Of a stretch of DNA of 64,000 bases, positions 7,740-25,366 are shown piece by piece. Source of the stretch: Pandoraea capi (GTDB lineage Bacteria; Pseudomonadota; Gammaproteobacteria; Burkholderiales; Burkholderiaceae). The stretch spans positions 124,001 to 188,000 of the forward strand of contig NZ_CABPRV010000009.1 in assembly GCF_902459735.1 (NCBI RefSeq). The letters run 5' to 3'. The notes under the pieces are model-generated. The model worked only from the letters and a program-made list of their open reading frames with translations. It searched no databases and was not told the DNA's origin. Within the stretch, counting starts at the first letter, position 1. Each line of letters starts with the position of its first letter. The position numbers and the translations under genes were made by a program.

Positions 7740-9566
7740 TCACCCCGCCCAGTTGAGCGTGACGAGAACGACACTGCCTTTCGGCCCAAGCGACGCCGGC
7801 TGTACGAGGGCGCGTCCGGCCATCAACTCGCCGGAAAACGTCTGCCCACGGAACTGCCACTGCGCGCGCACCCCTACGCCTGCGCCGACAAGCGTCGGCC
7901 AGCCGGCTTCGGCCACCAGATGCGCCTTGCCGCCGTCGAGGAACAGATACGGTTCCCAGCGAAGTCCCTGCCAGACGGGGGCGTTGGCCCACACCGCCTC
8001 GTTGCGGACGTAGAAACCGCTGTCTCCGGCGATGCCGCCTTGCAGAAAGCCACGGACGGAATCCGTGCCGCCGAGGAATATTTGCGCGTTGCCGAAGAGC
8101 GCTACGGGGCTGTATTGACCGGTGAGTGAGGTGCGCCACGTCCAGTAGGTCGGACCGAGCTGGGCAAGCGGCATCTGGACGGTGGTGCTGGCGTCCAGCT
8201 TGGTGAATTGCGCGTGGGCGTCTTGTTTCTGAATGCCGTCGAAGTCTCGCGTGGCGTCGAGCCACGGCAGGCCTTGCGAGATGCCGAGCGAGGCCGTCAA
8301 CGCGCCGGGCAGGCCATTTCGCGTGAAGCGCCAGAGGCCGGAGACACCGACGCGCAGGATCGTGAGGTCTTGAGGCGAGAGGGGAATGTCGTTGACGTCA
8401 CGCTCGGTCGACAGTTTGGTCAGCGTGGCATCGAGACTCAGCCGCCCGCTCGACGACCGGGTGAACACGGTATTCCATCCGAATATCTGACTGAGCGTGC
8501 GGCCATAGAGCAATGCGGTGCCGCCGATGATCTGCTGGTATTCGGAGAGCGCCGCCGTGTAGCTGAACGTCTGGTAGCCATAGGGCACCGCCGCCGAGAC
8601 GACGAGCGCGTTGCTGTCGCGCGTGCCCGTGTAGGCGAGACTCAGGGACTCCTGCAAGCCGATGACGTTGGCGGCTTCCACCGAGGCACGGGTGCGCCAT
8701 CGTCCGGTTGCCGTGCTGCCATAGTTGTCGACACCGACGTTGTAGTTCAGCCGGCTGCCGAACGGGTTCTGGATCGCGACGATCGACTCGCCTGCGGCCT
8801 GCCCGGGCAGGATCTGGATCTGCGCCTGATTGCGGCGCAGCCGGTTGATCTGATCGACGCCCTGTTCGAGCGCGGGAAGTTCGAGAACATCACCGACCGA
8901 GGCGGGGAAGGCCCACGCGGTGCCGGCGTCCGTGAGCAGACCGCCGCCGTCGCCCGGTTTGCCGTCTCCCGTCGGACGCAGCGCGCCACCGTTCAGCGTG
9001 AAGCCGCTGATGCGACCGGCCACGAGCGTGATGGCGAGCGTGCCGGACGACAGGTTTTGCGGCGTGGCGAGGTAGGCGCGCGTGGTGATGAGGCCATTAG
9101 CCACGAAGGCTTCCGTCAGACGTCGCAGCAGCAGATCGATGCGGCGCCGACCAAGCGATTTGTGCAGGAAAGGCGCCGCGATGCGATCGAGTTGCGACTG
9201 ACTGAGGACGGCATCGCCTTTGAAGACGATATGGTCGATGCGGAAGGTCGGCTCCGGATCGGGGAGCGTTTCGACGTCGGCGTCTGCCGGGAGATCGGGC
9301 ACTTGCGACGCCGCGCCGGGGGCCACTTCAATCTGCGCGGGTTGGCGATCGAGTTCACGCTGCAACTCGCGGTTGCGTTGCTCGTCGAGCAGACGCTGCC
9401 CAGGGTCCTGTTGCGGGACGATGCCCGGAGGGAGTGCAGGCACGGGCGGCAGACCCGGTGGCGTTTGCGCGAATGCCGGGGACACCATCCACACGACGGC
9501 GAGCGTGGCGGCGATGCGGCGTGCGGAGTGTACGCTGAGACGCGTTCTCAAGGTCATAAAGGTCAT
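7740..9566 (-). CDS. Two-partner secretion outer-membrane transporter (TpsB, FhaC/ShlB family)
   Basis: 608-aa protein: signal peptide (LAVVWMVSPAFAQ), a Pro/Gln/Arg-rich linker, POTRA domains (about residues 90-260) starting at FRIDHIVFKGDAVLSQSQL, then a 16-strand-type barrel with the Omp85/TpsB motif VRGF in TDSVRGFLQGG. It opens a channel through which TpsA proteins thread to the surface. Start ATG 9566 makes a 4-base ATGA overlap with the stop of the upstream TpsA gene; other in-frame ATGs lie nearby. The overlap implies translational coupling with the 715-aa TpsA. The giant TpsA downstream is a plausible second client. The C-terminus is NWAG rather than a terminal aromatic residue. Confidence 0.93.
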   Translation of the reverse strand: MTFMTLRTRLSVHSARRIAATLAVVWMVSPAFAQTPPGLPPVPALPPGIVPQQDPGQRLLDEQRNRELQRELDRQPAQIEVAPGAASQVPDLPADADVETLPDPEPTFRIDHIVFKGDAVLSQSQLDRIAAPFLHKSLGRRRIDLLLRRLTEAFVANGLITTRAYLATPQNLSSGTLAITLVAGRISGFTLNGGALRPTGDGKPGDGGGLLTDAGTAWAFPASVGDVLELPALEQGVDQINRLRRNQAQIQILPGQAAGESIVAIQNPFGSRLNYNVGVDNYGSTATGRWRTRASVEAANVIGLQESLSLAYTGTRDSNALVVSAAVPYGYQTFSYTAALSEYQQIIGGTALLYGRTLSQIFGWNTVFTRSSSGRLSLDATLTKLSTERDVNDIPLSPQDLTILRVGVSGLWRFTRNGLPGALTASLGISQGLPWLDATRDFDGIQKQDAHAQFTKLDASTTVQMPLAQLGPTYWTWRTSLTGQYSPVALFGNAQIFLGGTDSVRGFLQGGIAGDSGFYVRNEAVWANAPVWQGLRWEPYLFLDGGKAHLVAEAGWPTLVGAGVGVRAQWQFRGQTFSGELMAGRALVQPASLGPKGSVVLVTLNWAG

Positions 9567-11710
9567 AACCCGAACCACGTCGTCAGACCGAGATGAGTGC
9601 CAATGCGCGCAGGTTCACGGTACGGCACGTATGCCGTCTCGATGCCCTGCGGCGCGCGCACGCCCTTCGCGCCCGTGATCACGCCGCCTTTGACGACACC
9701 CCGTCCTGTGAGCAGGACTTCACCCGATGCGGCCGAGAACAGACCACCGTCGTTCTGGGCGTAGATGGCGGCCCAGTGGTTGCCGAACCACGCTTTCAGC
9801 CCACGTGTGCCGTTGTAGGCCGTGTAGCCGAGCAAGCCCTGCGCCGTGACGAGTGGTGCGTCTACCGTCAGATCTCCGCCCCAGGCGATCACGTTGCCGC
9901 CGACGTTGCTGGCGCTTTGTCCCGCGTGCAAGGTGATGCTGCCCGCTGCCTGCATCTGCCCGCCGTAGGACGCCGTGGTGCTCGACGCCACCGCCTTGCA
10001 GAAAATGAAGCACGAACGCTGATACGACGCCTGCCCTGCCATGACGGCCTGATTGACGAGGTCGCTCGTGGCCGTCACGCGAATATCGCCGCCGTTGGTC
10101 AGCACCGTGCCGCCGTTGTTGTAGACGTTACGGCCGGAGAGTGTGACGTTGCCCGCGTCGGCAATGATGTAGGAGAGCTGGCCGGGCGCCGGAATCGCAC
10201 CATAGTCGACGGAGAAGCCTTCGTCACGTGTCGAGAAGAGGAGCCAGCGGCGGCCGCTGGTCGCATAGGCGGTCGAGACACCGCCGTTGGCGCCCTCGAT
10301 GTGGGAGATGACGTTGCTGAGATCGCCCTGCGCCTGCATCGATACCGATTGGTTCGATTCGATGCGCGCATTCAGGTTGACGATGTTGCCTGCGGCGCGC
10401 ATTACGACGTCGTCGTTCACACCGAAAATGACGCCGAACGCGCCGCCCGGATTGCTTGGGTCCGATGTGTTGGTGATGGTGCCGGTTGCGTCTAACGTGA
10501 TCGCGCCCGCCGACGACGTCAACGCGGAGTCGCGCGACACGCCCTGGATCAGGCTACTGACGTTCGTGACGTCACCCTGACTGTTGATCACGATGCCGCT
10601 ACGCGACGACACCAGCGTCGACTGGATCGCACCGGCATTGGCGATGAACACGCCGTGACTCGACAGGTTGATCGAGCCACCGGCGAGTATCGAGGCGCCG
10701 CTCAGGGTTGTCTGTCCCTGCGACTGCCATGACAGGTTGTTCGCGACATTGATCTTGCTCGATGGCGCCAGCATCACGTCGCCCGCAGACGTCAATGTGA
10801 AGTCACCGGCATTCGCCATCAGCGCCCCGGCATGACGCACACCCGCGCCGAGGTCGGTCGTCAGCAACTGGATACGGCCCGAGGTGATGCTGCCGTTCGG
10901 CTCCACGTCGAGCGCGATGGCGGCGGGATTCGCTTGCTGGTTGTTGGCGAGCGAGACCCAGTCGTTGTTGTTGTCGTCCGGCGAAAAGCTGGTGTTGAGC
11001 GAGACCTTGCTGCTACCGGCGATCACGCGCACGTAGGCCGTGGGGGACGAGAAGTCGTTGGTAATGGGCGCGCTGACCTTGACGGTCTTGGCGATGAGTT
11101 CCAGCCCGATGAGCGTGCCCGCGAGACCGCCGCCCGCCACCTCGATGGTTCCCTGACTGGTGTTGAGCACGACGTTGCGCTGGTAGAGGCCGGGGGCGAC
11201 GAGCACGTCGGTGAACGATACCTGCCCGGTGCTCAGCGCGACGTGGCCTGTGTTGACGAACGATCCGCCGTTGACGGTAATGCCGTTCGGGTTCGCGAGC
11301 ACGACGTTGGCGCGCGGCCCGGTCACGGCGATCTGCCCCTGAATCAGGCTCGGCGACGTACCCGTCACTTCGTTGACGATGGTTCGTGCGTTGACGCCTG
11401 TGTTGTTCAGCGTCGCGCCAGCGCGATCGACGTTAAAACTGGTGTAGGTGTTGTGCGACACCCCGTAGACAGGGGGTGCGATGGCGACGTTCTGGCGGCC
11501 ATCGGGACCGACGGTGACGGCAGTCGCCGTGCCGCCATCCGGGACAATGCCCGCGGCGTGACAATGCGCGGCCGCGACGAACATCGTCGTCAGGCCGAAC
11601 CTAGTTACGCTTCGAAACTGCTGAAACCGCCGAATCCCCGAACTGCGTGTGGTGTGCCCGTCAATCTCGCCGGCCAACGGCGAGACTTCGCGCGTTGATT
11701 GCCAAGGCAT
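9563..11710 (-). CDS. Short TpsA exoprotein with haemagglutination activity domain
   Basis: 715-aa exoprotein: long positively charged n-region, hydrophobic core (FGLTTMFVAAAHCHAAG), then a TPS domain with GPRANVVLANPNGITVNGG near residue 138 and a short haemagglutinin-repeat region to the end. Start ATG 11710 is chosen because AAAGATCAG precedes it exactly as it precedes the cdiA-like gene at 23265; an in-frame frame continues upstream to 11899. The protein is far shorter than typical FHA. It has an unusual close cysteine pair (SCFIFCK) and no recognisable toxin domain, so it may be a small secreted or surface-retained adhesin. The stop codon overlaps the tpsB start (ATGA). Confidence 0.87.
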   Translation of the reverse strand: MPWQSTREVSPLAGEIDGHTTRSSGIRRFQQFRSVTRFGLTTMFVAAAHCHAAGIVPDGGTATAVTVGPDGRQNVAIAPPVYGVSHNTYTSFNVDRAGATLNNTGVNARTIVNEVTGTSPSLIQGQIAVTGPRANVVLANPNGITVNGGSFVNTGHVALSTGQVSFTDVLVAPGLYQRNVVLNTSQGTIEVAGGGLAGTLIGLELIAKTVKVSAPITNDFSSPTAYVRVIAGSSKVSLNTSFSPDDNNNDWVSLANNQQANPAAIALDVEPNGSITSGRIQLLTTDLGAGVRHAGALMANAGDFTLTSAGDVMLAPSSKINVANNLSWQSQGQTTLSGASILAGGSINLSSHGVFIANAGAIQSTLVSSRSGIVINSQGDVTNVSSLIQGVSRDSALTSSAGAITLDATGTITNTSDPSNPGGAFGVIFGVNDDVVMRAAGNIVNLNARIESNQSVSMQAQGDLSNVISHIEGANGGVSTAYATSGRRWLLFSTRDEGFSVDYGAIPAPGQLSYIIADAGNVTLSGRNVYNNGGTVLTNGGDIRVTATSDLVNQAVMAGQASYQRSCFIFCKAVASSTTASYGGQMQAAGSITLHAGQSASNVGGNVIAWGGDLTVDAPLVTAQGLLGYTAYNGTRGLKAWFGNHWAAIYAQNDGGLFSAASGEVLLTGRGVVKGGVITGAKGVRAPQGIETAYVPYREPARIGTHLGLTTWFGL

Positions 11711-12549
11711 CTGATCTTTCGTTTCTAGTTGTTTTACTGCTCGCAACATCCGACGGCCGTCACGAATGTGGCGCATCGCCACTTCGTCGACGTTCCCCGA
11801 ACAGCCCATCGCGCGCCGGCTATCGTGTTGTGCCAGCTTTGCGCAACGTGCCGCGCCCGTCGGATTCCTAGCTGGTGAGAACCAGCCCAGAGAGAGCATT
11901 ACGGATGCAGATTGAGATTTCTTTAGGGTTGCGACGTGATTTTTTTACATTTATTTGCGCACAGTCGGTATTGACTTGGATGATTGACCGAAGGGATGTT
12001 GCTGCGACCTCCATCTACGTTACGGTGCATAACATGATCGTATGCCATTGATTTATATATATTTCATTGGAACCCAAACGCTTACCGTATTGACATGAAA
12101 TCTTGCGCAATTGACTATTTTTCAATAGGTGAATTTATTGTTTTCATAGAAATATTTCGGATTCCGGCGATAAGTCGACTCGTGACGACTAGGCATTCCG
12201 AATCTGCATGTCATACCGACCAGGTGACGCTCATCATCGTCGAGTGAGACGCCAAAGGTCCGGCGGAGCGTAACGGAGCTGGAGAAGATACTTGGCACAC
12301 CCCACCTCAGCTAGTGGAAGCGATGCGCGGGGAGGAAGGGTTTGCTACGTCAGAATGGACCGGTCAAAAAAACGCGAACTTGCTCGTCTTCATGGCATGT
12401 CTTCCGTTTCAAACTGTCAAATTCATGCCGGATTTTCTACTTTTCAGCGGCACTGCTTTCTGGGGTAGGGTCAATTGTGGCCACTCTCAATCATTGATTA
12501 AATGCTACCCCTGTCCACTAAATCCTGGTAACTCCATTTGTTGTTTGTG
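11711..12549. other. AT-rich intergenic region upstream of the short tpsA
   Basis: About 840 bases with no convincing gene. Base composition from about 11920 to 12190 is clearly more AT-rich than the neighbourhood, as expected for a regulated or H-NS-type-silenced surface-protein promoter region. It should hold the promoter of the minus-strand TPS cluster, but I cannot choose one -35/-10 pair. Short open frames here overlap one another and lack ribosome binding sites. Confidence 0.5.
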
Positions 12550-12771
12550 CTATAGCCGATTTCGTACCCGAAAATATTGCAGAATTGCCACGATCCAGAA
12601 GACTAGAGCCATGAGAGAACCACGAATCAGAACGAACCGTACGTCTTCCATTCCCCACCGATACGCTCCACCGTAAAACATTACAGCCATCAGGACAGAC
12701 GATACTTTGATCGCCGCGAAACATAGCATCGACAGGGCATAGGCCAATAGCAGTAGGAGCACTAGACGCAT
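12550..12771 (-). CDS. Small multi-spanning membrane protein, candidate orphan immunity protein
   Basis: 73-aa protein from ATG 12771 with GGAG 14 bases upstream. Almost all of it is hydrophobic, with likely membrane segments at LVLLLLLAYALSMLCFAAI, SSVLMAVMFYGGAYRW and GSLMALVFWIVAILQYF, then a basic tail (RVRNRL). I do not recognise a family. It lies in a cluster of CDI toxin and immunity pieces, directly behind the second copy of a 22-bp repeat that also borders the displaced toxin, and no toxin gene precedes it. An orphan immunity gene is the inference. An unrelated small membrane protein, or a chance ORF in low-G+C DNA, remain possible. Confidence 0.5.
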   Translation of the reverse strand: MRLVLLLLLAYALSMLCFAAIKVSSVLMAVMFYGGAYRWGMEDVRFVLIRGSLMALVFWIVAILQYFRVRNRL

Positions 12772-12791
12772 CAATTTTTTGCAGACTCCAT

Positions 12792-12813
12792 TTGTAGTGG
12801 TCAACCCATCCCG
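12792..12813. repeat. 22-bp direct repeat, copy A
   Basis: On the plus strand the unit begins TGTAGTGGTCAACCC and ends ATCCCGG. An identical copy in the same orientation is at about 13955-13976. Homology stops at both ends of the 22 bases. The copy lies just upstream of the small membrane protein at 12550-12771. The terminal TG and the general look resemble the end of an IS3-type element, but no transposase is present between or beside the copies. Confidence 0.75.
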
Positions 12814-12939
12814 GCTCACGCGTTATCGGGCAACGCTAAGAGACCGCTTCAAAATGACTATTACGTACGTACGAAGATGTTCTAGCAAGCGAGGGAGCAA
12901 CTGAGTTTGAGGAGGGCTTTATGAGCGGTGCCTTACCCT

Positions 12940-13224
12940 TTACGGCCCACCTTCTCTAGGCAACGCCCACCCCCACATGAGTAGTTGAAACTCAGCCAAT
13001 CGGTCTGCTACGTCCGCAAATTCAGGTATTTCCGACTCTATCTCCCAGCGTTCCAGCCAGTCCAGATGACGAGGTTGCATTATCAATCCCGCCTTCGTGT
13101 CGGATATCGCTTCGAGCAACGGCGGATAAGTTGCCAAAAAATCCACGTCCTTACTTTTGCCGTGATTTCTTTGAAGCGCGACCTCAAGCATTTCCGCATG
13201 CTCTTTCAATTTGACTGCATTCAT
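12940..13224 (-). CDS. Candidate CDI immunity protein paired with the displaced toxin fragment
   Basis: 94-aa soluble acidic protein, mostly helical by composition (KLKEHAEMLEVALQRNHG, LEAISDTKAG, EFADVADRLAEFQLLMWGW). I do not recognise a family. Its ATG overlaps the stop of the toxin fragment as ATGA, the tight toxin-then-immunity arrangement of cdiA-CT/cdiI pairs, and the two run on the same strand. By context it neutralises the toxin encoded at 13221-13988 in the cytoplasm. No other function is suggested by the sequence. Confidence 0.65.
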   Translation of the reverse strand: MNAVKLKEHAEMLEVALQRNHGKSKDVDFLATYPPLLEAISDTKAGLIMQPRHLDWLERWEIESEIPEFADVADRLAEFQLLMWGWALPREGGP

Positions 13225-13988
13225 TGCCTCAGACCTCTAATTTCCCCGATCTTGTTCGCGTTCGGATCTGTCCATTGACTGCGATTAGGGACCAAAACCT
13301 GTTGGGCGCCTCCGGGGGCAAAGTACGCTCCCTGTTGCACAGGCACAACTTCACTTGTGAACACCGTCGCGGGGGATCCCTGTTTCGGTGTCATTGAGTA
13401 CACGTCAAACCCAAACTGCGAGCCTCTAATTCCTTGCTCTGCCGGGAGGCCCAACCTTGCCGCGATTTGATTGGAAGGAAGTTTGGATAACGAGTCATAT
13501 TCTGCTTTCGTCATAAAGTAGGCAGAACTGTTACTGATAACATCGTTGCCGTTGATAGCCTTTGGCACCAACTTTATCAACTGGGTATCCGCCCCAACGG
13601 CGACCGCAGTAGGTAATGCAGTCCCGGTTTTTATAAGGCCGGCGGCGTAAACGTAAGCGCGGTCAAGAGGCAGTCCAGATAACACATGTGAATCCACAAT
13701 AGCTTGCGCCTGCGCCGTCTTCATTAGTTCGGCAGAAGGCTGCAATCCCAGGACACCGAATTTCTCGGAAGGAATGTAAGACAGCCGAGATAGGTCATTC
13801 AATGCCGCAGTTTGTTTGGCCGAAATATTTTCCAGTACTGAACCCGTTAATGCCCCGCCCAAGCTAATTGCAGCATAGGTGAACGCAGCCGTCTGGGGAC
13901 TTAGCCCCACACTCAGCAAGGCCTGCTTGCCATAAGTTGAATTAATGTCGCCGGTGTAGTGGTCAACCCATCCCGGACATTGAGTCAA
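13221..13988 (-). CDS. Displaced CdiA C-terminal toxin fragment (orphan CdiA-CT)
   Basis: 255 codons from a TTG, with an in-frame stop (TAG) five codons before it and no good ribosome binding site. It therefore looks like the broken-off 3' end of a larger gene rather than a gene with its own start. The N-terminal part (STYGKQALLSVGLSPQTAAF, ISLGGALTG) resembles CdiA/FhaB pre-toxin sequence. The C-terminal third (FDVYSMTPKQGSP, VVPVQQGAYFAPGGAQQV, VPNRSQWTDPNANKIGEI) looks like a compact toxin domain I cannot name. The open frame runs through copy B of the 22-bp repeat, where the recognisable protein begins. Such modules are known as a reservoir for toxin exchange with the main cdiA. Confidence 0.7.
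   Translation of the reverse strand: MTQCPGWVDHYTGDINSTYGKQALLSVGLSPQTAAFTYAAISLGGALTGSVLENISAKQTAALNDLSRLSYIPSEKFGVLGLQPSAELMKTAQAQAIVDSHVLSGLPLDRAYVYAAGLIKTGTALPTAVAVGADTQLIKLVPKAINGNDVISNSSAYFMTKAEYDSLSKLPSNQIAARLGLPAEQGIRGSQFGFDVYSMTPKQGSPATVFTSEVVPVQQGAYFAPGGAQQVLVPNRSQWTDPNANKIGEIRGLRQ
13955..13976. repeat. 22-bp direct repeat, copy B
   Basis: Identical to copy A at about 12792-12813 and in the same orientation. It sits at the 5' border of the displaced toxin fragment, inside its first codons. It marks the point where the upstream part of that gene was lost, whether by IS insertion and deletion or by recombination between cassettes. Confidence 0.75.
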
Positions 13989-14104
13989 GTTTTTCTTCTG
14001 CTACCGCAGGAGCTAGCCTCTCGTCGCACACAACCATTTTTCGTCAAACAAACAACATGGATGACAGACTCGGTGCCTCCTCCCGTAGGAATCTAACATG
14101 CACC

Positions 14105-14239
14105 TTAGAAAAAAAACCTTTTGATTGCCATAGCCCCCAAGATTGCGCACGCTATGGCAACACATACCCAATAGACGGTCCGATCTTTTGAACTCATTTT
14201 CTCCCATTGCTCTGGGGTTGGTCCTCCGCCTGCAGCCAT
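14105..14239 (-). CDS. 44-aa single-span membrane protein, candidate immunity protein of the CdiA-like toxin
   Basis: From ATG 14239 the product is 44 residues: a polar N-terminus (MAAGGGPTPEQWEKMSS), one membrane span (VYWVCVAIACAILGAMAI) and the tail KRFFF. A near-perfect ribosome binding site, AAGGGAGG, ends 5 bases before the start and overlaps the stop codon of cdiA at 14251, so the two genes are tightly coupled. It occupies the cdiI position. A membrane-resident immunity protein would fit a toxin acting on or in the inner membrane. I know of no family match; the assignment is by position, ribosome binding site and topology. Confidence 0.68.
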   Translation of the reverse strand: MAAGGGPTPEQWEKMSSKDRTVYWVCVAIACAILGAMAIKRFFF

Positions 14240-14250
14240 AATTACCTCCC

Positions 14251-17200
14251 TTATTTCAACGGTTCCGTTACCTGAGTGGAATGCCCCCAAGGCTGTACGC
14301 CGACGGTGAGCGGACCTAGCGTACCGATGCCCAATTCAATCCCGGTCGCCCCTCCGTACGAATGGGTGATCGCACCACTAACGTTAACCCTAAAAGGTGT
14401 TGGAATGGAAATGAACATCTGATTGCCATCCCCTGCAAGGAAACTGCTAGTTCCTTTGGCGCTGTCAACACCAAAGATCCAGCCAACGGTGGCGCTTAAA
14501 CCAGGCCGCCAAGAAATTGAAGATGGATTTGTTTGAGCCACGCCTCCTGATAGATAGGTAGATCCATCGTAGAAATTGATGACGCCGGTCACAACCCCAG
14601 ATAAGGTCCCGGTATTCAATGTTCCGTAGTCGGGCTTAAGACCACGACCACTTGTGCCCAACCCTGCTGAATAGTCCCCCGTATTAAATCCCGGTGAAAA
14701 CGGCCCGTTACCTTGACTATTCGGCAAATCGGCATGCGAGCGCCCAATACTCTCAGACGACGATACGTTCCAGCTGTACGGCGAACTTCCTCCCCCAGTA
14801 CTCGCTGCGATCAAGTCGCGCAACGCATCGGGAGGTGGGGATAGCATCGCAGCATCCTGAACAAGATACTTGTTTCCGGACGCATCGACGAAAACACGCA
14901 TGCCGGTACTATCGTAAATCTCCTTTGCCTTCGTGTCGGAATTGAGCGGCACTAGCATCCCTGTCCATGCGGTCTCGCCATAGGCGCTGTTATTGGCCGA
15001 GCGCATAGCATTTTTAATTTGATCTATCGAGATCGGAGATCCATCTTGGTTGACGATGCCTCTCCGCCTTGCATCCTCTAAGACTCTCTTAGCAAGCGCC
15101 TTTTCATCCGGATGCAACTGCCGATTAAACCGATCGACGTTATACCCGGTAAACGCCCCAGAACTCCCACCAACCGCTGCTCCCACCGCAGTACCAACGC
15201 CCGTCGCCACGATCTGGGCCAGCGCTTGATCGATGTCGGCGTTGCCTGTCGGATGAGCCTTCTGAATGTTCTCGCTAAGTTCGTTCAGTGTCCCGCCGAG
15301 CTTCGACGTCAACCCCGCGCCTAGCGCACCACCGAGCGCATTCCCGCCGCCTAAGCCCGCGATGATGGCGCCGCCCGCCGCGTGCATTGCCGCACGGTAG
15401 TCGCCGCCCTCCTTCCAGTCGTCGGCTTCCTTCTGATACTGCGCCTTCAATTCCGGATCGGTCGTGGCGTCGGCCAGCTTTTGTGCCGCGTCTCGCTTCT
15501 TATCTGCATACGTCCCGATATCGCGTGCCACCGCTTCCCCAGCCGCCGTCGCCGCCGCCATCAGACGTGACTGATCGTTAAGCAGGTTCTGCAAATCCGG
15601 TGTGCGGTTCACCGTTTCATTCAGATTCGACGTATCGCGATTCAGGCTCGCCAGATCCTGCGTCTGGTTCGCGCCGTTCGTCAGCGTGATCGTACCTTCG
15701 CTCACCCCGCTGCGCGTCACGCCTCGCTCACTACCGCTCTCCGACTGCGGCAGCATCGGTGCAAGGCCGCCCGTGTTCTTGCCCGAACTCGGCCCCGTCG
15801 TCCGCTCGTTTGCACCGCCATTGCCGAACGAGCCCCCACCGCCAAAACCGAAGCTGTTCGCGCTGTAGTCGGAATGGTTCTGGATGTCGGAGAACGTCAA
15901 CGTGCCCGTCGTGAGTTGATTCTTTGACGGGTCTGCCGTACTGGCGATATACGAGCCTTTCAGATCCGTATTCCCCGCGACATTGATGTCGAATCCGCCA
16001 GAGCCCGCCTGAATCCCCGCTTGCTCAACCACACCCGCATAGTTGCCGCTCGCGTTACCGCGCGAATAGCTGAAGCTGCCCGAAGCGCCGCCCATGCTCG
16101 CGCTGAACCCGCCGCCCATGCTCTCTTGGTGCGCTGAACTCTCGCTCGTGTCTTGCACGCTGGCGATGTTCAGATCGCCGCCCACACGCGCAATCACCTT
16201 GTCCGCATTCACATTGCCGCCGACGATATTCGTATCGCCGCCGCTCACAATCACCGCAGTGTTGCTCGCATTGATGTGGGAGTTGTTCTGGAACGTCGAA
16301 TCCGAGTTGGCGTCGCCGTTGGACTTCGAGAACGATGCCGATACACCCCAGCCACTCGTGCCAAACGACACACCGAAGCTGCCGCCCTTCGACTCGTTAT
16401 CGCTGCGCGTCGACTCCGTGTCCTTGCTGCTGAGAATATTGACCTGGTTGTTGGCTTGCAGGAGAACGTCCTTCGCATCGATGTTCGAGCCGATGATGTT
16501 GACGTTACCTTTGCCCGACGCCGCGTCGCCAGTGGCGACAAACGCCGTCGTGCCGCCCGATCTGATGTTGCTCGACACGTTCTGCGTCGTATCGACGGAT
16601 GATGTCGATCGGCTGCTCGACGAGCCAAAACTGAGCTCGACTTTGGCCTCCGGTGTTTTGCCTGCTTCGAGCATACTCAGCGCACCTTTGGCCTCGCCGA
16701 ATGCACCCACCGCGCCACTTGCCGCAGCATACCCACGCAGCGCCGAGACACGCGCATCGCCCCCCGAATCCACCGCAGCCTTGACCTGATTCGTCACGTT
16801 TTGCACTGCGTCGATGACCGGCGACTTCACTGCCAACGTAAAACCCGAGCTCTTGAACTCATGCATCTCGTCATGATGCTGCTGATTAAGCGCAGATTCG
16901 ATCGTGACGTTCTGACCGATGCCGGTGATATCGCCGGCCGCCATGATGTCGCTGCCTCTGACCCGCAGGTCGTTGCCCGCCACGATACTGACATTGCCGT
17001 TCAGGCTGCCGACCATGCTGCCTGTCTGCGTCACGCTGCTGTCGTTAGTCTGGTCACGTTGCTCGTTCTTGCCGTACGAAATACCCACACCGCCCGACGA
17101 ACCCAAGCCAGAACTCTTCTTCTCGTAAAACGAGCTGCTCTGGCTTTCGTTCTGCGCCGACTCGATGCGCACATCGCGTCCGGCCTGCAAAGCGACGTCC

Positions 17201-20200
17201 TGCGTGCCAACGACCGTTGAACCACTCACGACGAGGTCCTGGCCCGCCGACACGCCCACTGCATTGCCGGACACGGTCGATCCGACCGCAATCGTCTGAT
17301 GTGAGCTGGATGACGACGTCTCCTCCGTTTTGGAGAGAAATCCGGAACTGCTATCGTGCTGCCAATTCCGACTATCGTGGGTCTCCGTCACCGTGCCTAT
17401 ATTGACGTCCCCCGTCGCCGCCAATGCGATGGTTCCATTGCCCTGCGACGACACGGATGAACCCAGCACCGACAGATTTCCGGTGCCTGACGAGGCCGCG
17501 ACCGGACTGATCTGATACGCGCCGAGCACGCCACCGACGGCACTCGCCTGCCCCGCGCCGATCAGCACGTGGTTGCCCCCGCTCACAGACGCACCATTGA
17601 CCGCCTCGTCCAGCGACGACTTCGTGTACTGCAACGTGCCGCCGAAGGAACGCTCGTCGTGCGTGTGCGAATCCTTGACCGCCGTGACCGTGACGTCATT
17701 GCCCGCGAGTACCGTCGCATTGCCACCTGCGGCTACTGTCGTTCCGCTCAACGTGGTGTCGCGCCCTGAGACCGTCGTCAAATTTCCGCCAGCGGAGATC
17801 GCACTGCCGACGTTCTGCACAATGACATCACGACCACCGTTCTGCCCATCGGTCGTACCGACGATCTGCGACTGACCGACCGTCAATGTGTTGGCATTGA
17901 TGTCGCGTCCCGCCGCAACCACCACAGCGCCATCGCTGGCGATCGCGCCCGCATTGAGGGTGACGTCGCGCGCCGCCACGGCGGTGGCGCTGTTCGATCC
18001 CGAGATGATGCCGACTGCACCGATACCGGTGGCCGATGCGGACGACGTAAAGCTGCCACCGTTGTCCGTCCCTGCCGTCTGCGTAAGCGTGGTGGATTCG
18101 TTGATGAGATCGCGGCCAGCCTGCACCACGACATCCTTGCCGCCGATGCGCCCGCCGGTGTTCCGGATATCGCCGAGCGACGAGAGCGCGGTCGTGCCAC
18201 CGCTACCGATGACGCCGAGGTTGACGATGGCGTCGCCGAGAATCGTCGTCGCGGTGTCGCTGACGATCTGGCCACTGTTATTCACATCGCCCGTCGCGGC
18301 GAGCTTAACGCTGCCGCCCGAGACCAGCGCGCCCGTGTTCGTCAGATCGACGGTATTGGCCTGCGCCAGGTATACCTGCGGCACGAGCACGGACTGCACC
18401 GAGCCGTCGGGCAGCGTGACGTCTTGCGAGACCAGCCACACCATGTCGCTGGTCAGTTGCTTCATCTGAGCATCCGACAGCCCCACACCCACGCTCAGGC
18501 CAAATTGCTTTCCGTACGTCACACCGTTGTTGAGCAGCGCCGTGTATTCGTCGAGATGGTTGGTGTATCCCGCGAGCAGTGTCTTGCCGGTCAGCGCCGT
18601 GATCTGATCCCGCACCAATTGCGTTTCATAGAAGCCGTCGCCGATGCGCTTCTGCGTTGTCTGCGGATCGAGATTCAGCCCAGTGAGCATGTAGTCGCTG
18701 GAGATGAATTTGCCGTAATCGGTGAAACGCGAATCTGTGGCGACGAGATAGGTCTGCCCCGGTGCCGAACGCAATTGGAACAGCGCGTTTTTTGGCAAGG
18801 TCAAGCCGGGAATCGCCTGCGCAGACGAGCCGAGCGTCTGACGGTTGGCCACCGCGCCCGACAAGTTGCCCAACTGGGTTCCCGCCGCATTCCCCCCAGT
18901 CACGCCTGCGCTACCCACGGTGTTACCGGAAGGGTCCACGCTCGACACCGTGATGTTCCGACCAGTGGATTGCACTGACTGATTGCCCACGGCAATCGCC
19001 GGAAGCGATGCAAGTGTGGTCGGCGGCAACGGCGTGACGGGGTAGGCCACCGTCTGCTGGTCACTGTCGCCGCCCGATTTCTGATGCCAGTAGAAGGTCG
19101 ACGTCTGCGTCTGTGTCACTGTCTCCTGCAAAGTGATGCCAACGTCGTTGACGGACCCGCCGGTCGCTCGTCGAATCAGATCACGCCCGGCCGTCATCGT
19201 CGACGACTGGTTGTTGATCGCACCGCCATCGGCATTGATGCGAATCGATCCCTGTGCCTGTAGCTTCGCTTCGGGAGATGCACTGATGAGTTCGTCACGC
19301 GTTCGTGTCGTCGTGACGATGCGCGTGATTTCGTTGTAGTCTCGCTGGTCGATCCCCAGATCGCCGCGGGAGATTGCCTGATCCGGCCGGATCATCGTGT
19401 TCGGGTCCCAATCCGGCCAGAACACGACACGGTAGCTGTCCCCGTTATCGACGATGCTGTTGAAGTACTGCGTCGGGTTCTTGCCGACGTCGCGCGTCTT
19501 GGTTGTCGAAGCGCACTGACCGTGATCGTCGCACGGACCCTGGCCTTGCGTCGTCATGTCCTGATACGACTCTTCGAGCGGCTTCGTCAGACTGAAGGTC
19601 TTCGCCGCGAGATTCACATTCGTCACCTGCGACTTCGGAATATCGACGGTCAGCGGTCTGGCAAGCGTCTGCAGCAGAGACGACGATATCGGTGCCCGGC
19701 CCCCGCTCCAGAACCATTCGGGGAACGTCAGGCTCATGTGCATCAGCGTTTCATCGCCACCCGTCAACCCCGCCGTGTAGAGACTGAAGCCCTGCGTCGT
19801 GGACTGCGGCGTTCCCGGCTGCGTCACGATGCTGGTGCGGGAGTTGTTGATGACGCGAGCCGCAATGTCCAGATTGCCGTCGGCAACGATGTTGGCCGAA
19901 CGGTTGGTCAGCAGCGCCATCTGATTGGCGAGCAGCCCCTGCCCGTCGCGCGTGCCGTCACGCGCAATCTCGATGTCGCCTGTGCTGTAGAGCAATGCCC
20001 CGTCGTAGTTGGAGACGGAGTTGGACGCATATAGCGCGAGCCGCCTCGCGCCCCCCATAATCGCGGACGCGCTGCTGTTCTCGATATCGACGGCATCGAT
20101 CTGCACGTCGTTACCCAGTACACCGTAGCCATTGAAGAAGTAGTTCGCCTTGAGCCGCACCGTATCGCCACTGATGTTGCCGGTATTGGAGAACAGGCTC

Positions 20201-23200
20201 GCAGCACTCAGTTGTGTCGTCGTCGCATTGATCGAGCCATTCGCGTTATTGACGATCTGGGCGGCTTGTACGTCGAGCGTGCCGGGCGCCGTGAGCGTGC
20301 CATCGTTGGTGAAGCGTCCCGTCGACGTGAGCTTGAGGATGCCGTCCGCACGCAGACGGTTGGCGGATGCGTTCACGTAGTCGCCGATGGCAGCAAGCGT
20401 CAGATTGCGACCCGCCGTCATTTGTCCCGCACCGTTCATGGCGCCGCCTACGCCCACGTCGCGGTTCGAGCGAATGACGCCGCTACCGTTATCGAGCGAA
20501 GCGACCTGCAACGAGACGTCGCCACGACTCTCGATGGTGCCGCCCGCATTGTTCAAGCGTGCGGTGGCTTGCGTCACCGTCAGTGACATGCCGCCGAACA
20601 ACTGCCCCGCCGAGTTGTCGAGCAAGCCGACGACACCCAGCAGAACGTCTGCACCGCCAATGATCTTGCCGCCGGCGATGTTGCTCAGCGACGCCGCATT
20701 GACGTTCAGTTTGCCGTTGCCACCGATCGTTCCTCCGGCATTGCTCACGTCCCGAACAGCCGTCACGGTCGTATCGCCGTCGCCTGCATTCGTCAGTTGC
20801 CCGGACGCGTTCGCGACACTACCGACTGCTACCGTCAGCGTATCGTGTGCGCCGTTGGCACTGATGCGGCCACCGATATTGGTGAGCGTGCCGTTGGCAT
20901 TCAGCTTGATGGCACCACCGGACTGCATCGATCCCGCCGTGTTGTCGATGTCGGTGCTCGCCGAAACCGTCAGACTATTCGCGCCGTACACCACACCGCC
21001 ACTACGATTGACGATGTTCGCAGCGGCGGTAAGCCACACGGAATCGCCCGCACTCAGCTCGCCGCCCGTGTTATCGATACGCGCCGCCGAGATCCGGAGC
21101 GCGCCCAGACTTCCCAGCAGACCGGCTAGGTTTGTGACGTCACCCGTCGACACGACCGACAAGGTGCCGTTGCCGAGATGACTAATCTTCCCCTGGTCGT
21201 TGACCAGTTGTCCGACGTTCAGCGCCAGCTCGGCGGCCTTGGTCGCTACCGTGCCAGCACTGTTGTCCAGCGCGCCATCGACTTTGATGGTCTGACCCGA
21301 ATCGCCGTATTGCTTGATCTCTCCCGAACGGTTGGACGCATCGCCCGACACCGACAACGACAAGGTGTCCGCGTCGATCAGCCCATGATCGTTGACGAGT
21401 TTTCCAGCGCGAAGGGTCGATGTCGTCGCGGAAATTACGCCCTGACGATTGGTCAGAGCACCATCGGCGCTCACATCGATTTGTGCGCCGGAGAGTGTCC
21501 CGTTGGTGTTGTCCAGTTGCCCGGACGTAAGGGTCATCGTCGTCGCGGCAACGAGTTGCGCGGCATTGATCAGGGAGCCGGCATGCAGGCGCAGGTCGCC
21601 GTTGGTGCCGATGACCCCGCCGGCTGCGCCGAGTCCGTTCGTGCCCGCCGCGTTGCGCAATTCGCCGTCGATGTCGATCGAATTGCCGTCGCCACCGAGC
21701 GATACTACGCGCCCGGCGGTGTTGTTCAGCGACGCACCCCTGACCTTGAGAAGCCCACCCGATTGCATCAAGCCGCGCTGGTTATCAAGACTTGCCCCGG
21801 TGACGTCAAGCCGCGTTCTCGCGGCCGTTTGTGCATCGGTGTTGTCGATACTGCCCAGCGCTGTCAACGTGATCGTGTCGGCCGCCAATGCCCCGTTGGC
21901 ATTGAGGACGCCTTGCGCGGCCTTCACGCTCAGCGCGTTGGAAGCCGCGACAATGGCGCGCTGAAGGTCGATATCGCCTGCCCGCGACGTCAGCGACAAG
22001 CTTTGACTCGCATCCGTACGACTGCCGGAAAGGTCCAGCGCATCGGCGACGAATGTCATGTCGCCGCGAGCGACGTTGCGCCCGGTCGCGACCACCTTTC
22101 CGGAGGCCGTCACACTCAGATTGCCCGTGAGTGTCGGCTGACCAGCGGTGTCGATACCGGCTCCGAGCGTGCCGCGCGACGTCAGACCGGCGGCCTGCGC
22201 GATCAGATTCCCCGATGCGCTCAGCACACCGCTGTTATCGAGGATGCCGCCGGAGCGGATGTCCGCCAATCCGCCCGCATAGACGTTGCCCTGATTGTCG
22301 ATGCCTGCCCGAGCGTTGAGGCCCACATTGCCCGTTGCTTCGATCTTTCCAGTCGAGACGAGCTTGCCCTCGGTCGTCAACGTGAGATCGCCAGCCTGCG
22401 CCGCAATCACGCCCTTGTTGGAAACGCCGACACCATTTTCCGTGCCCACGAGAAAGATGCGCTGCGCGTACATCCCGCCTAACTGACCGACGTCCACTGC
22501 CACGTCGGGTGCGACACCGTCGCCCGCCGTCTTCTGCACCGCAAGCGTTTCGTGATCGACACGATTCGTGCCCGTTACCACATTGAGTTGCTTTGCATGC
22601 AACGCAGCGTTGACCTGAACAGCGCGTGCGATGAGGTCGACCTGATCGACATTCGCCGCGTTCAGGCCGTCTCCCTGAATCACCAGACGCCCGCCATTGA
22701 CCTGATAGCCGGCCAGGCTGCCGTCCCCGCCCATGATCGGGATACCGGTGGTCAGTACCGCACGCGTGGTGTTGATGAACCCGCCACCGTCGACCATGAT
22801 CCCCGCGCTGTTCGCCACGACGACCTGCGCAGCCTTCCCGGCCACCTCAAGGTAACCACGTAACTGACTCGGCGAATTGCTGTTGACCTGATTCAGGATG
22901 ACGCGGGCAGCCTGATCTCGCGCCAGATTCGGGTTGCCATTGACATACCCGGCCTGTTGCGTGTTCACGATCGTTGGCGAGTTATTGAGAATTACGCCTT
23001 GGCGCGGCACGTCGAATTGCGAGTAGACGTTTTTCGACACCCCGGCCGCCGTCGGCGCAGTGATGTTGACTTGCTGCAGTCCGTTTGCCGTCTGCACAAC
23101 ACCGGGCGCATTGGCTCCCGGAGCCGCGACGACCTGCGCGCGAACTGACACCGGCGCAACAACCTGCGCCAGAACAAGCGCGCGCACCATGGCGCGCTGG

Positions 23201-23265
23201 AGGCCGCCCTCTGCCCGATTTCCCCGAATCACGCCGTGGGCACGGCGATTGACTTGTGATTTCAT
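14251..23265 (-). CDS. cdiA: CdiA/FhaB-like contact-dependent inhibition exoprotein with C-terminal toxin domain
   Basis: 3004 aa, close to typical CdiA size. Layout: signal peptide about 1-43 (VVAPVSVRAQ); TPS domain about 45-300 with VVVANSAGIMVDGG near 153; FHA-1 repeats about 300-1130; non-repetitive, aromatic-rich stretch about 1150-1390, the likely receptor-binding region; conserved block about 1490-1650 (SDYMLTGLNLDP, IGDGFYETQLVRDQITALTG); FHA-2 repeats about 1660-2480; helical pre-toxin region with a Gly/Ala-rich segment and the boundary-like NVDRFNRQLHPDEK at about 2712; then about 290 variable residues. The last 115 (INFYDGSTYLSGGVAQ, WRPGLSATVGWIFG, HSYGGATGIELGIG) recall, from memory only, polymorphic toxin type 22. 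AAAGATCAG precedes ATG 23265. CdiB is divergent. Confidence 0.9.
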   Translation of the reverse strand: MKSQVNRRAHGVIRGNRAEGGLQRAMVRALVLAQVVAPVSVRAQVVAAPGANAPGVVQTANGLQQVNITAPTAAGVSKNVYSQFDVPRQGVILNNSPTIVNTQQAGYVNGNPNLARDQAARVILNQVNSNSPSQLRGYLEVAGKAAQVVVANSAGIMVDGGGFINTTRAVLTTGIPIMGGDGSLAGYQVNGGRLVIQGDGLNAANVDQVDLIARAVQVNAALHAKQLNVVTGTNRVDHETLAVQKTAGDGVAPDVAVDVGQLGGMYAQRIFLVGTENGVGVSNKGVIAAQAGDLTLTTEGKLVSTGKIEATGNVGLNARAGIDNQGNVYAGGLADIRSGGILDNSGVLSASGNLIAQAAGLTSRGTLGAGIDTAGQPTLTGNLSVTASGKVVATGRNVARGDMTFVADALDLSGSRTDASQSLSLTSRAGDIDLQRAIVAASNALSVKAAQGVLNANGALAADTITLTALGSIDNTDAQTAARTRLDVTGASLDNQRGLMQSGGLLKVRGASLNNTAGRVVSLGGDGNSIDIDGELRNAAGTNGLGAAGGVIGTNGDLRLHAGSLINAAQLVAATTMTLTSGQLDNTNGTLSGAQIDVSADGALTNRQGVISATTSTLRAGKLVNDHGLIDADTLSLSVSGDASNRSGEIKQYGDSGQTIKVDGALDNSAGTVATKAAELALNVGQLVNDQGKISHLGNGTLSVVSTGDVTNLAGLLGSLGALRISAARIDNTGGELSAGDSVWLTAAANIVNRSGGVVYGANSLTVSASTDIDNTAGSMQSGGAIKLNANGTLTNIGGRISANGAHDTLTVAVGSVANASGQLTNAGDGDTTVTAVRDVSNAGGTIGGNGKLNVNAASLSNIAGGKIIGGADVLLGVVGLLDNSAGQLFGGMSLTVTQATARLNNAGGTIESRGDVSLQVASLDNGSGVIRSNRDVGVGGAMNGAGQMTAGRNLTLAAIGDYVNASANRLRADGILKLTSTGRFTNDGTLTAPGTLDVQAAQIVNNANGSINATTTQLSAASLFSNTGNISGDTVRLKANYFFNGYGVLGNDVQIDAVDIENSSASAIMGGARRLALYASNSVSNYDGALLYSTGDIEIARDGTRDGQGLLANQMALLTNRSANIVADGNLDIAARVINNSRTSIVTQPGTPQSTTQGFSLYTAGLTGGDETLMHMSLTFPEWFWSGGRAPISSSLLQTLARPLTVDIPKSQVTNVNLAAKTFSLTKPLEESYQDMTTQGQGPCDDHGQCASTTKTRDVGKNPTQYFNSIVDNGDSYRVVFWPDWDPNTMIRPDQAISRGDLGIDQRDYNEITRIVTTTRTRDELISASPEAKLQAQGSIRINADGGAINNQSSTMTAGRDLIRRATGGSVNDVGITLQETVTQTQTSTFYWHQKSGGDSDQQTVAYPVTPLPPTTLASLPAIAVGNQSVQSTGRNITVSSVDPSGNTVGSAGVTGGNAAGTQLGNLSGAVANRQTLGSSAQAIPGLTLPKNALFQLRSAPGQTYLVATDSRFTDYGKFISSDYMLTGLNLDPQTTQKRIGDGFYETQLVRDQITALTGKTLLAGYTNHLDEYTALLNNGVTYGKQFGLSVGVGLSDAQMKQLTSDMVWLVSQDVTLPDGSVQSVLVPQVYLAQANTVDLTNTGALVSGGSVKLAATGDVNNSGQIVSDTATTILGDAIVNLGVIGSGGTTALSSLGDIRNTGGRIGGKDVVVQAGRDLINESTTLTQTAGTDNGGSFTSSASATGIGAVGIISGSNSATAVAARDVTLNAGAIASDGAVVVAAGRDINANTLTVGQSQIVGTTDGQNGGRDVIVQNVGSAISAGGNLTTVSGRDTTLSGTTVAAGGNATVLAGNDVTVTAVKDSHTHDERSFGGTLQYTKSSLDEAVNGASVSGGNHVLIGAGQASAVGGVLGAYQISPVAASSGTGNLSVLGSSVSSQGNGTIALAATGDVNIGTVTETHDSRNWQHDSSSGFLSKTEETSSSSSHQTIAVGSTVSGNAVGVSAGQDLVVSGSTVVGTQDVALQAGRDVRIESAQNESQSSSFYEKKSSGLGSSGGVGISYGKNEQRDQTNDSSVTQTGSMVGSLNGNVSIVAGNDLRVRGSDIMAAGDITGIGQNVTIESALNQQHHDEMHEFKSSGFTLAVKSPVIDAVQNVTNQVKAAVDSGGDARVSALRGYAAASGAVGAFGEAKGALSMLEAGKTPEAKVELSFGSSSSRSTSSVDTTQNVSSNIRSGGTTAFVATGDAASGKGNVNIIGSNIDAKDVLLQANNQVNILSSKDTESTRSDNESKGGSFGVSFGTSGWGVSASFSKSNGDANSDSTFQNNSHINASNTAVIVSGGDTNIVGGNVNADKVIARVGGDLNIASVQDTSESSAHQESMGGGFSASMGGASGSFSYSRGNASGNYAGVVEQAGIQAGSGGFDINVAGNTDLKGSYIASTADPSKNQLTTGTLTFSDIQNHSDYSANSFGFGGGGSFGNGGANERTTGPSSGKNTGGLAPMLPQSESGSERGVTRSGVSEGTITLTNGANQTQDLASLNRDTSNLNETVNRTPDLQNLLNDQSRLMAAATAAGEAVARDIGTYADKKRDAAQKLADATTDPELKAQYQKEADDWKEGGDYRAAMHAAGGAIIAGLGGGNALGGALGAGLTSKLGGTLNELSENIQKAHPTGNADIDQALAQIVATGVGTAVGAAVGGSSGAFTGYNVDRFNRQLHPDEKALAKRVLEDARRRGIVNQDGSPISIDQIKNAMRSANNSAYGETAWTGMLVPLNSDTKAKEIYDSTGMRVFVDASGNKYLVQDAAMLSPPPDALRDLIAASTGGGSSPYSWNVSSSESIGRSHADLPNSQGNGPFSPGFNTGDYSAGLGTSGRGLKPDYGTLNTGTLSGVVTGVINFYDGSTYLSGGVAQTNPSSISWRPGLSATVGWIFGVDSAKGTSSFLAGDGNQMFISIPTPFRVNVSGAITHSYGGATGIELGIGTLGPLTVGVQPWGHSTQVTEPLK

Positions 23266-23593
23266 CTGATCTTTTGTACGACTATTTTTAGTAGGGTCTT
23301 CGCCCGATTTCTACTTCTATCGATACAAACTTCGCATGTCGAATAGTACTCAATAATTTAGTATTTGTTTGTACAACTAAACTGCCTTTATGAAATAGAC
23401 TTTTACCTGTAACATTCCGATAAATAAATAATCCAAAGCAAATAGCACGGGGATCATGTTAGAGTCCGACGCCTGATTTCGGCGGTCCACATCGGGACAC
23501 GCCGCTCACACTTTGCTTCGCATTCCACCCCCCATCTTTGGATGGCGCGATAACGCTCGCCCTAGCACCGCGAATCACCACCGCCGCTTCGCA
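23266..23593. promoter_or_regulatory. Divergent promoter region between cdiA (minus) and cdiB (plus)
   Basis: About 330 bases, strongly AT-rich between 23280 and 23460, separating two genes that must be expressed together. It contains a dyad-like stretch around 23368-23385 (GTTTGTACAACTAAAC) and several weak -10-like hexamers on both strands, so a shared regulatory region is likely. I cannot assign start sites. Codons in frame with cdiB extend back to 23513 but lack a ribosome binding site. Confidence 0.6.
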
Positions 23594-25366
23594 ATGAATC
23601 TCGCTTCGCACCGCTCCGTAACGAATGTCCGTCGCCTGCTTTGCGCGCTGGCGGTGTCGTTCGCTTCGCTTCCAGGCGTTGCCCTTGCGCAAGCCGCGCC
23701 GCCGGCCGTAGATGCCGCCGCGACAAACGCCCGCCAGCAGCAGTTGCTTGAACAACAGCGCCAGGCGCAGGAACGCGCCGCCGCGATCAGTGCGCCAACG
23801 GTGCGCTCGGCGATTCCCGCTGCGGATGGATTCCCGACGCTTCCCGTAGAAGCCCCATGTTTTTCGGTCGAAAGATTTTCGCTGCACGTTCCAGAGATAC
23901 TCCGCAAACGTGCGCAAGCCGCCGGTGCGTCATCGCTTCCTCTCGATCCATTTGCGTTCGCTACGGACTGGCTTGCGCACTATCGGGGCGAATGCGTCGG
24001 CCGCGAGGGCATTGCAGCGATAACAGCCGGGCTTACCAGGGCGATTCTGGCCAAGGGCTATGTGACAACACGCGTTCTCGTGCCCGAGCAGGACCTCACG
24101 ACGGGAGAACTGAAGCTCACGCTCGTTCCCGGCCTCGTCGGGGACATCCGCTTCTCTGATGCATCGCAATACGGCACTTGGCAAACGGCGTTCCCCACAC
24201 GCCCAGGCGATCTCCTCGAACTGCGCGATCTGGAGCAGGGGCTTGAGCAGATGAAGCGCGTGGCGAGTCAGGACGTGACGATGCAGATCGTGCCGACGGA
24301 AGCGCCCGGAGAAAGCGATGTCGTCATCGACGTCAAGCGAACAAAGCGATGGAGCGTCGTCGCCTCGGTCGACAACTCAGGGTCTCGCGATACGGGGAAA
24401 TTGCAGGGTAGCCTCGCCCTCGGCATCGACAATCCCCTGGGTCTGAACGACATCCTGAATGTCGGCGCGACACATGATCTGTCGTTCGCTGACAAGCGCT
24501 TCGGATCGAACGGATGGAATGCTTTTTACTCGATTCCGTGGGGGTTTTGGACTGCGACTGTGGCTGCTTACGCCAATCGGTATAACCAACAAATCGCAGG
24601 TGTGAACGACACTTTCGTGACTCGTGGACAGTCGCAGAATCTCGATTTCAAACTGTCGCGGGTACTTCAACGCAGCCAGAGCAACGTGCTGAGTGCGCAC
24701 GTTCGGTTAAGCAAGCGCTTTGGACGCAGTTTCCTCGAGGATGCAGAAATCGATCAGCAGTATCGGAACAATACTTTCATCGAGTTCGGTATCTCGAATC
24801 GTCGCTACATCGGTGTCGGGCAATTCGACGGCACCCTTGCTTATCGTCAAAGCGTGTCGGGGCTCGGGGCTGCGCCGGATAACGCCTTGCCTGGCACGCC
24901 AACGTATCGCTTCAAGATGGCGGTACTTGACGCGAACCTGTCACTGCCGCTCGGTCAATTGCCACTTCGCTACGTCACGACATTTCACGGGCAATTCACC
25001 GGCGACGTGCTGCACTACATCGACGACATGAGTATCGGCAGCCGCTATACCGTTCGTGGATTTGACGGTGAATCATCCCTTGCTGCGGAAAAGGGCTTTT
25101 ACTGGCGCAACGAATTGCAGTGGGCACTCAGCGCGTCTGGCGTATCGCTCTTCGCCGGTGTGGATTACGGGCGTGTCAGCGGCCCCAACGCGCAGTACCT
25201 GGCCGGGACACAGCTTGCGGGCGCAGTCATTGGCGTACGCGGCAATACCAAGCTCCCATTCGGTTTTGTCACTGGTGAAGTCTTTGCCGGCACCCCAATC
25301 TATAAGCCAACTTCGTTTCAAACCGCACACGCTACTGTCGGATTCTCGCTTACCGCGCAGTTCTGA
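23594..25366 (+). CDS. cdiB: CdiB: TpsB outer-membrane transporter of the CDI locus
   Basis: 590 aa from ATG 23594, chosen because the signal peptide (LLCALAVSFASLPGVALAQ) then begins near the N-terminus. A Gln/Arg-rich linker (QQQLLEQQRQAQERAA) matches the plug-helix linker of TpsB proteins. POTRA domains follow at about 90-230 (FSVERFSLHVPEI; GYVTTRVLVPEQDLTTGELK). The barrel carries the conserved SIGSRYTVRGFDGE motif and ends in a terminal Phe (SLTAQF), the usual signature for BAM-dependent insertion. It exports the CdiA-like protein through the outer membrane. Orientation opposite to cdiA is unusual, since most cdi loci are co-directional operons. Confidence 0.92.
   Translation: MNLASHRSVTNVRRLLCALAVSFASLPGVALAQAAPPAVDAAATNARQQQLLEQQRQAQERAAAISAPTVRSAIPAADGFPTLPVEAPCFSVERFSLHVPEILRKRAQAAGASSLPLDPFAFATDWLAHYRGECVGREGIAAITAGLTRAILAKGYVTTRVLVPEQDLTTGELKLTLVPGLVGDIRFSDASQYGTWQTAFPTRPGDLLELRDLEQGLEQMKRVASQDVTMQIVPTEAPGESDVVIDVKRTKRWSVVASVDNSGSRDTGKLQGSLALGIDNPLGLNDILNVGATHDLSFADKRFGSNGWNAFYSIPWGFWTATVAAYANRYNQQIAGVNDTFVTRGQSQNLDFKLSRVLQRSQSNVLSAHVRLSKRFGRSFLEDAEIDQQYRNNTFIEFGISNRRYIGVGQFDGTLAYRQSVSGLGAAPDNALPGTPTYRFKMAVLDANLSLPLGQLPLRYVTTFHGQFTGDVLHYIDDMSIGSRYTVRGFDGESSLAAEKGFYWRNELQWALSASGVSLFAGVDYGRVSGPNAQYLAGTQLAGAVIGVRGNTKLPFGFVTGEVFAGTPIYKPTSFQTAHATVGFSLTAQF

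Follow-up and report, generated by a model that had tools for sequence, protein, structure and literature searches.

The 64,000-nucleotide stretch of Pandoraea capi DNA analysed here (the window) contains a cdi locus in which CdiA ends in an Ntox22 toxin tip and is followed directly by a gene for a 44-aa membrane protein with a single span. Across the bacterial family the association between Ntox22 tips and such mini-proteins was strong. It is likely that the locus is a CDI cassette in which Ntox22 acts at the inner membrane of the target, probably by depolarising it, and in which the 44-aa mini-protein provides immunity. The features of the locus, in window coordinates, are as follows.

14251 to 23265, minus strand: cdiA, 3004 aa, with a TPS secretion domain, filamentous haemagglutinin repeats and a C-terminal toxin region (open reading frame and Pfam)
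23513 to 25366, plus strand: cdiB, a ShlB/FhaC-type outer-membrane transporter divergent from cdiA (PF03865, E 9.7e-95)
15100 to 15141, minus strand: the NVDRFNRQLHPDEK boundary motif, which opens the CdiA C-terminal region (sequence)
14641 to 15099, minus strand: presumed cell-entry domain of about 150 aa, between the boundary motif and the tip
14263 to 14640, minus strand: Ntox22 (PF15527) toxin tip (Pfam, E 1.3e-45)
14245 to 14252, minus strand: Shine-Dalgarno sequence AAGGGAGG, overlapping the cdiA stop codon (sequence)
14105 to 14239, minus strand: 44-aa single-span membrane protein, encoded by the gene proposed to confer immunity to the Ntox22 tip (cdiI)
14123 to 14179, minus strand: predicted membrane helix of the 44-aa protein, residues 21-39 (Kyte-Doolittle)

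The CdiA/CdiB architecture was identified from Pfam matches to PF05860, PF13332 and PF05594 together with PF03865, and on this basis the locus is predicted to be a growth-inhibiting CDI toxin/immunity cassette. Within the last 329 residues of CdiA, residues 201-326 (126 aa) matched positions 1-126 of the 129-position PF15527 profile, with a score of 155 bits against a cut-off of 25. The tip that an earlier note had likened to type 22 is a full-length member of Ntox22. In a sequence search of the PDB the best matches were antibody domains (0.001), which aligned mostly with the region preceding the tip, and the best match of the tip profile in the PDB (0.28) was unrelated.

The TAA stop codon of cdiA occupies positions 14251-14253 of the minus strand and is separated by 11 nt from the ATG of the small gene at 14239. 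The product, MAAGGGPTPEQWEKMSSKDRTVYWVCVAIACAILGAMAIKRFFF, consists of a polar head, a single helix and a terminal KRFFF, with a peak Kyte-Doolittle mean over 19 residues of 2.24 at residues 21-39. The gene arrangement, with a strong Shine-Dalgarno sequence lying over the stop codon, and the composition of the protein both read as the earlier note had described them. The 44-aa protein had no match in Pfam or NCBIfam. Comparison of 24 mini-proteins with the family libraries gave no family that matched more than four members, the best E being 3.7e-5 (RAMP4, two members, Pfam).

The distribution of the pair was examined by profile search in 398 genomes of the bacterial family, which revealed PF15527 at 38 places in 32 genomes. 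A phylum-wide PF15527 search of 398 genomes gave only the genome of the window and one further member of the family. Prior to any model of the mini-protein, the next open reading frame in most loci was seen to encode a protein of 41-50 aa with one hydrophobic span; these proteins follow the pattern (M)xxGGGPxPEQWxKM...YW...span...K. An HMM of 24 mini-proteins (profile A1) located a mini-protein directly after the tip in 35 of the 38 places, a recovery that is not independent because many of these pairs had served to train the HMM. Both A1 and the broader tip profile A3 were built partly from loci later counted with them. With G083 (cut short by the end of its contig) and G116 (a score of 22.8 bits that misses the cut-off, and an FHA-repeat-like frame by eye) left out, a mini-protein was present in 35 of 36 assessable places, the exception being G203, where a divergent tip precedes a different, larger anchored membrane protein. 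The 35 paired places include three with a broken or partial tip (G266, G217 and G378:C23) and two with a mini-gene frame that looks damaged (G152 and one of the four copies in G110). At L038 (G309), L017 and L035 (G392) and L006 a single locus contains two Ntox22 tips, both accompanied by a mini-protein of their own, the second tip of L006 being partial, and G110 contains four Ntox22 places.

The reverse search with A1 gave 48 mini-protein places at E<=1e-6 in the 398 genomes, of which 35 lie directly after PF15527 tips and 2 after tip remnants; the weaker matches (E above about 1e-4) were mostly situated in open frames of 378-424 aa and resemble chance hits. The remaining 11 places had no tip within 300 nt and are interpreted as orphan immunity genes. 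An NRQLH boundary motif was present inside the fetched stretch at three of them (L080, L086 and L091), and three others had weaker repeat-type motifs only. None of the searched CDI motifs was found near the other five (L081, L082, L083, L090 and L092), so the label of orphan immunity is to be read as an interpretation.

Profile A3, built from 21 tips of which two do not match PF15527, was used to extend the comparison to 379 genomes of the order and matched 7 places in as many genomes, including 5 new places. At L098, L099 and L100 the tip is followed directly by a one-span mini-protein of 43, 36 and 40 aa, respectively, and at L102 by a 150-aa protein with an N-terminal hydrophobic stretch. 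The 193-aa partner at L101 has a second hydrophobic stretch in addition to the N-terminal one, making a single anchor uncertain. When compared with classic Ntox22 using hhalign, the class C tips gave 97% (2e-11) and are clearly homologous, and the class D tips (the second tip of L024, L099, L100 and L101) gave 35% (E 4e-4), which is suggestive only. Pfam placed two of the divergent tips on Rhs proteins: L099, of class D, and L046, a Massilia plasmid tip that is also annotated as Rhs and scored 24.9 bits for Ntox22 against the cut-off of 25. The partner is single-span in both cases. L101 was considered as a third Rhs case and rejected, being Rhs-like by eye with no Pfam Rhs match.

Two invariant cysteines were found in seven of seven class C tips and in seven of seven larger partners compared, two sets that overlap and are not identical: the partners comprise six of class C tips and that of L101 (class D), with the first partner of L033, a 68-aa fragment, left out. 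The cysteine pairs of class C tips and larger partners suggest an oxidising periplasm. There is about an even chance that the Ntox22 superfamily, which both CdiA and Rhs proteins carry, forms a class of its own among the beta-rich toxins that insert into membranes, is unrelated in sequence to Ntox25 and is neutralised by single-helix mini-immunities (36-50 aa) situated largely inside the bilayer, with a cysteine-bearing branch that has instead an N-anchored partner with a periplasmic domain.

The composition was calculated for 37 tips, those in the set of 39 pairs with a length of 115 aa or more. Charged residues made up 6.0% on average (range 3.1-9.5%), glycine 17% and aromatic residues 10.7%. 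The charged fraction was 13.6% in the EC93 Ntox25 tip, 19.0% in the entry region of the window and 23.1% on average (range 8.0-34.7%) in 17 yardstick proteins, one of which, at 8.0%, is as charge-poor as some tips. The topology of the partners was examined for 37 of the 39 mini-proteins, L009 and L010 being left out. Each has one hydrophobic stretch, with a minimum 19-residue peak of 1.89, and each has more lysine and arginine before the span than after it, with means of 4.2 and 0.9, the second figure being lowered by a span boundary rule that absorbed some C-terminal residues. This excess predicts that the head is cytoplasmic. No partner lacking a hydrophobic stretch was seen among the intact downstream genes that were read, and this together with the low charge of the tips favours the envelope over the cytosol as the site of action. 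The earlier suggestion of a membrane-acting toxin is consistent with the single-span partners and the charge-poor tips, from which we infer the site of action; a low charge and a membrane partner are by themselves no proof of a pore.

The mechanism that we propose is as follows. CdiB and CdiA would deliver the C-terminal Ntox22 domain to a neighbouring cell, where this charge-poor, glycine- and aromatic-rich and probably beta-rich domain would remain in the envelope and damage or depolarise the inner membrane. Siblings would be protected by the 44-aa protein, which is predicted to span the membrane with a single helix and to have its charged head on the cytoplasmic side, and which would bind the toxin at the inner membrane or inside it and so prevent its active state from forming. 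Immunity, topology, membrane site and depolarisation are all predicted here from sequence.

The available passages of a 2012 survey (PMC3482391; Zhang et al. 2012) describe Ntox22 as mostly beta, with proposed active-site residues D, D, H, E, H and T5SS delivery, and predict that it is a two-histidine, metal-independent RNase, a prediction repeated in the available part of a 2023 review (PMC9990079). The survey passages give no positions for these residues, which were assigned in this analysis. The window tip has candidates for all of D, D, H, E, H. Among the 37 tips, E102 was present in 37, H93 in 36, H120 and D25 each in 30, D71 in 29 and D4 in 22. The near-invariance of H93 and E102 makes a different catalytic role possible, and both residues are absent from the class D tips, three of four of which keep a mini-partner.

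A toxin active in the periplasm or against a protein complex of the inner membrane, as an inhibitor or envelope enzyme and not as a pore, with an anchored partner blocking it there, would account for the near-invariant H93 and E102, for membrane-anchored partners of two types and for the cysteine pairs of class C tips and partners. We regard this reading as unlikely. The class D tips, if they are homologous as the profile comparison suggests, combine the loss of both residues with retention of the mini-partner in three of four cases, and the low charge and high glycine content of the tips would be more usual in a membrane-inserting beta structure.

The published prediction that Ntox22 is a two-histidine RNase would place the toxin in the cytosol and make its partner merely membrane-tethered. 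This agrees with the conservation of H93 and E102 and is nevertheless improbable. The second histidine, H120, is replaced in seven of the 37 tips, each of them paired with a mini-protein; at least four of the seven (L028, L032, L073 and L039) form one divergent group by sequence, so these are not seven independent losses. The variation at D4, D25 and D71 also tells against the RNase, as does the scarcity of basic residues (2.8 per tip on average, some tips having none) and the presence of a hydrophobic stretch in every intact partner gene that was read. The evidence argues for reassigning Ntox22 from a predicted RNase to a membrane-acting toxin.

The assignment of the 44-aa protein as the very probable antidote to its own tip was examined further by following the partner within the genus. 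Haemagglutinin-repeat proteins were present in 24 of 32 genus genomes, whereas A1 mini-protein matches were confined to 4 of the 32, three with a classic Ntox22 tip and one (G006) beside a partial divergent tip. Profile A3 matched at 6 places in 6 of the 32 genomes, namely the four mini-protein genomes together with G002 and G021, in which a tip of a divergent subclass is followed by a protein of 143-144 aa with an N-terminal hydrophobic anchor. The entry region of G021 is 80% identical to that of the window (125-aa query starting at the boundary motif), yet the tip of G021 is of the divergent subclass and its partner gene is correspondingly different, a natural swap which indicates that the partner tracks the tip.

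Burkholderia CDI loci can hold an accessory such as BcpO, and a gene inside a cdi locus could be a general accessory of this kind instead of immunity. We consider this very improbable for the 44-aa gene, given its presence in 4 of 32 genus genomes when 24 of them have haemagglutinin-repeat proteins, and given that partner type goes with the tip and not with the entry region. The mini-partner is also found beside the tips of the two Rhs proteins, which makes an accessory of CDI secretion unlikely.

The distances between tips and between mini-proteins were correlated in a Mantel test (r 0.56), and none of 5000 permutations was as high (maximum 0.26). The test set comprised 30 of the 39 pairs, selected by a 95% identity filter and a length of at least 110 aa with damaged mini-frames kept in, and nearest neighbours agreed for tip and mini-protein in 19 of the 30. 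The gene therefore has the property by which a CdiI is recognised, lying directly 3' of the toxin domain and being co-inherited with it (35/38; r 0.56). The proposal of the earlier note that the 44-aa gene is the immunity partner gains support from this pairing and co-variation, with protection as the inferred step, and the co-conservation beside homologous tips that it had proposed as a check was found in 35 of 38 PF15527 places. A different, larger gene after homologous tips, which it had named as evidence to the contrary, was encountered only in the cysteine-bearing divergent subclass; for classic Ntox22 the mini-protein was present in 35 of 36 places.

The mini-protein is under purifying selection, with a pooled pN/pS of 0.14 over 11 close comparisons, some of which share sequences. 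The small open reading frame is more than a chance frame because of this value and because a homologous frame occupies the same place in 35 of 38 PF15527 places. An alternative in-frame TTG start would give a 61-aa form overlapping the end of cdiA, and the start shared with relatives is the ATG that yields 44 aa, not this upstream TTG. A chance frame, or a membrane tail fused to the toxin by read-through or frameshifting, could draw on the longer TTG form and has a negligible probability in view of the pN/pS, the existence of solitary mini-protein copies and the position of the ATG, which varies from -4 to +19 nt relative to the tip stop, occurs in each of the three frames and is mostly preceded by a Shine-Dalgarno-like sequence. 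In two annotated plasmid records the gene tables, which are incomplete by design, list nothing at the mini-gene site, and the mini-gene illustrates how a gene of some 40 codons is overlooked.

The remainder of this part of the window contains further elements of related type. Downstream of the 44-aa gene there is an apparent orphan CdiA C-terminal module, a 255-aa open reading frame on the minus strand (13221-13988), followed by a 94-aa apparently soluble frame (12940-13224, minus strand) that may be an immunity gene; neither had a Pfam or NCBIfam match. The start of the orphan module overlaps a stretch (13948-14024) that matches IS3-family transposase DNA with 84-86% identity over 75-77 nt in three of the ten records listed out of 51 matched, all three from Pseudomonas, and this stretch is perhaps the scar of an insertion that displaced the module. 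An 89-aa hydrophobic frame (12550-12819, minus strand), in which two or more membrane spans seem likely by eye and which had only weak Pfam and NCBIfam matches, may be a further orphan immunity gene. At 7740-11899 on the minus strand there is a second two-partner secretion pair, formed by a TPS-domain protein of 778 aa and a transporter of the ShlB type, and a repeat-bearing frame of 4028 aa overlaps the window at 4116-4514.

The available passages of the 2012 survey (PMC3482391) contain no immunity protein entry for Ntox22, and the proposed assignment gives a partner to a toxin family shown there without one. No description of a single-helix mini-immunity family was found in the open-licence literature searched, nor was one of a CDI locus of this kind in Pandoraea among its titles and the starts of its abstracts. 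A membrane helix of this size that neutralises a toxin would provide a tractable system for the block of a membrane toxin by one helix.

As compared with Ntox22 in the available survey passages (PMC3482391), the window tip is a full-length member that agrees in T5SS delivery and beta-rich character. The differences are a proposed membrane immunity family, a membrane site proposed as probable and the Rhs-borne Ntox22-like tip seen at L046.

The closest mechanistic precedent is provided by the Ntox25 ionophores (CdiA-CT2 of E. coli EC93) and Tse4, which are likewise short, glycine- and aromatic-rich (EC93-2 tip) and, according to the parts of the sources available, mostly beta. Ntox25 was first predicted to be an RNase and later found to disrupt membrane potential, and has been modelled as a tapered beta barrel (PMC11630599); the EC93-2 toxin dissipates membrane potential (PMC8190604). 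The overturned RNase prediction and the hydrophobic immunity partner are further points of likeness (PMC8190604; PMC11630599). A relationship between the two families was not supported, as comparison by hhalign with a shallow three-sequence Ntox25 alignment gave a probability of 0.2-0.3%, with no profile similarity, and PF15530 was absent from the Pfam matches of 21 tips. The precedent is therefore one of analogy and not of membership. The CdiI of EC93-2, at 162 aa, shows several hydrophobic stretches by eye, while the Ntox22 partner has a single span. The genes after two Ntox25 tips (L094 and L095) encode hydrophobic proteins of about 150 aa in which several spans seem likely by eye, and the immunity design of these Ntox25 partners differs from that of the Ntox22 mini-proteins.

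The alpha-helical CDI ionophores (type 10, EC93-1 group), as described in the available part of PMC11630599, have in common with the proposed Ntox22 system CDI delivery, a membrane target, which for Ntox22 is the one proposed here, and polymorphic cognate immunity. These ionophores are five-helix toxins (PMC11630599), whereas Ntox22 is described as mostly beta (PMC3482391).
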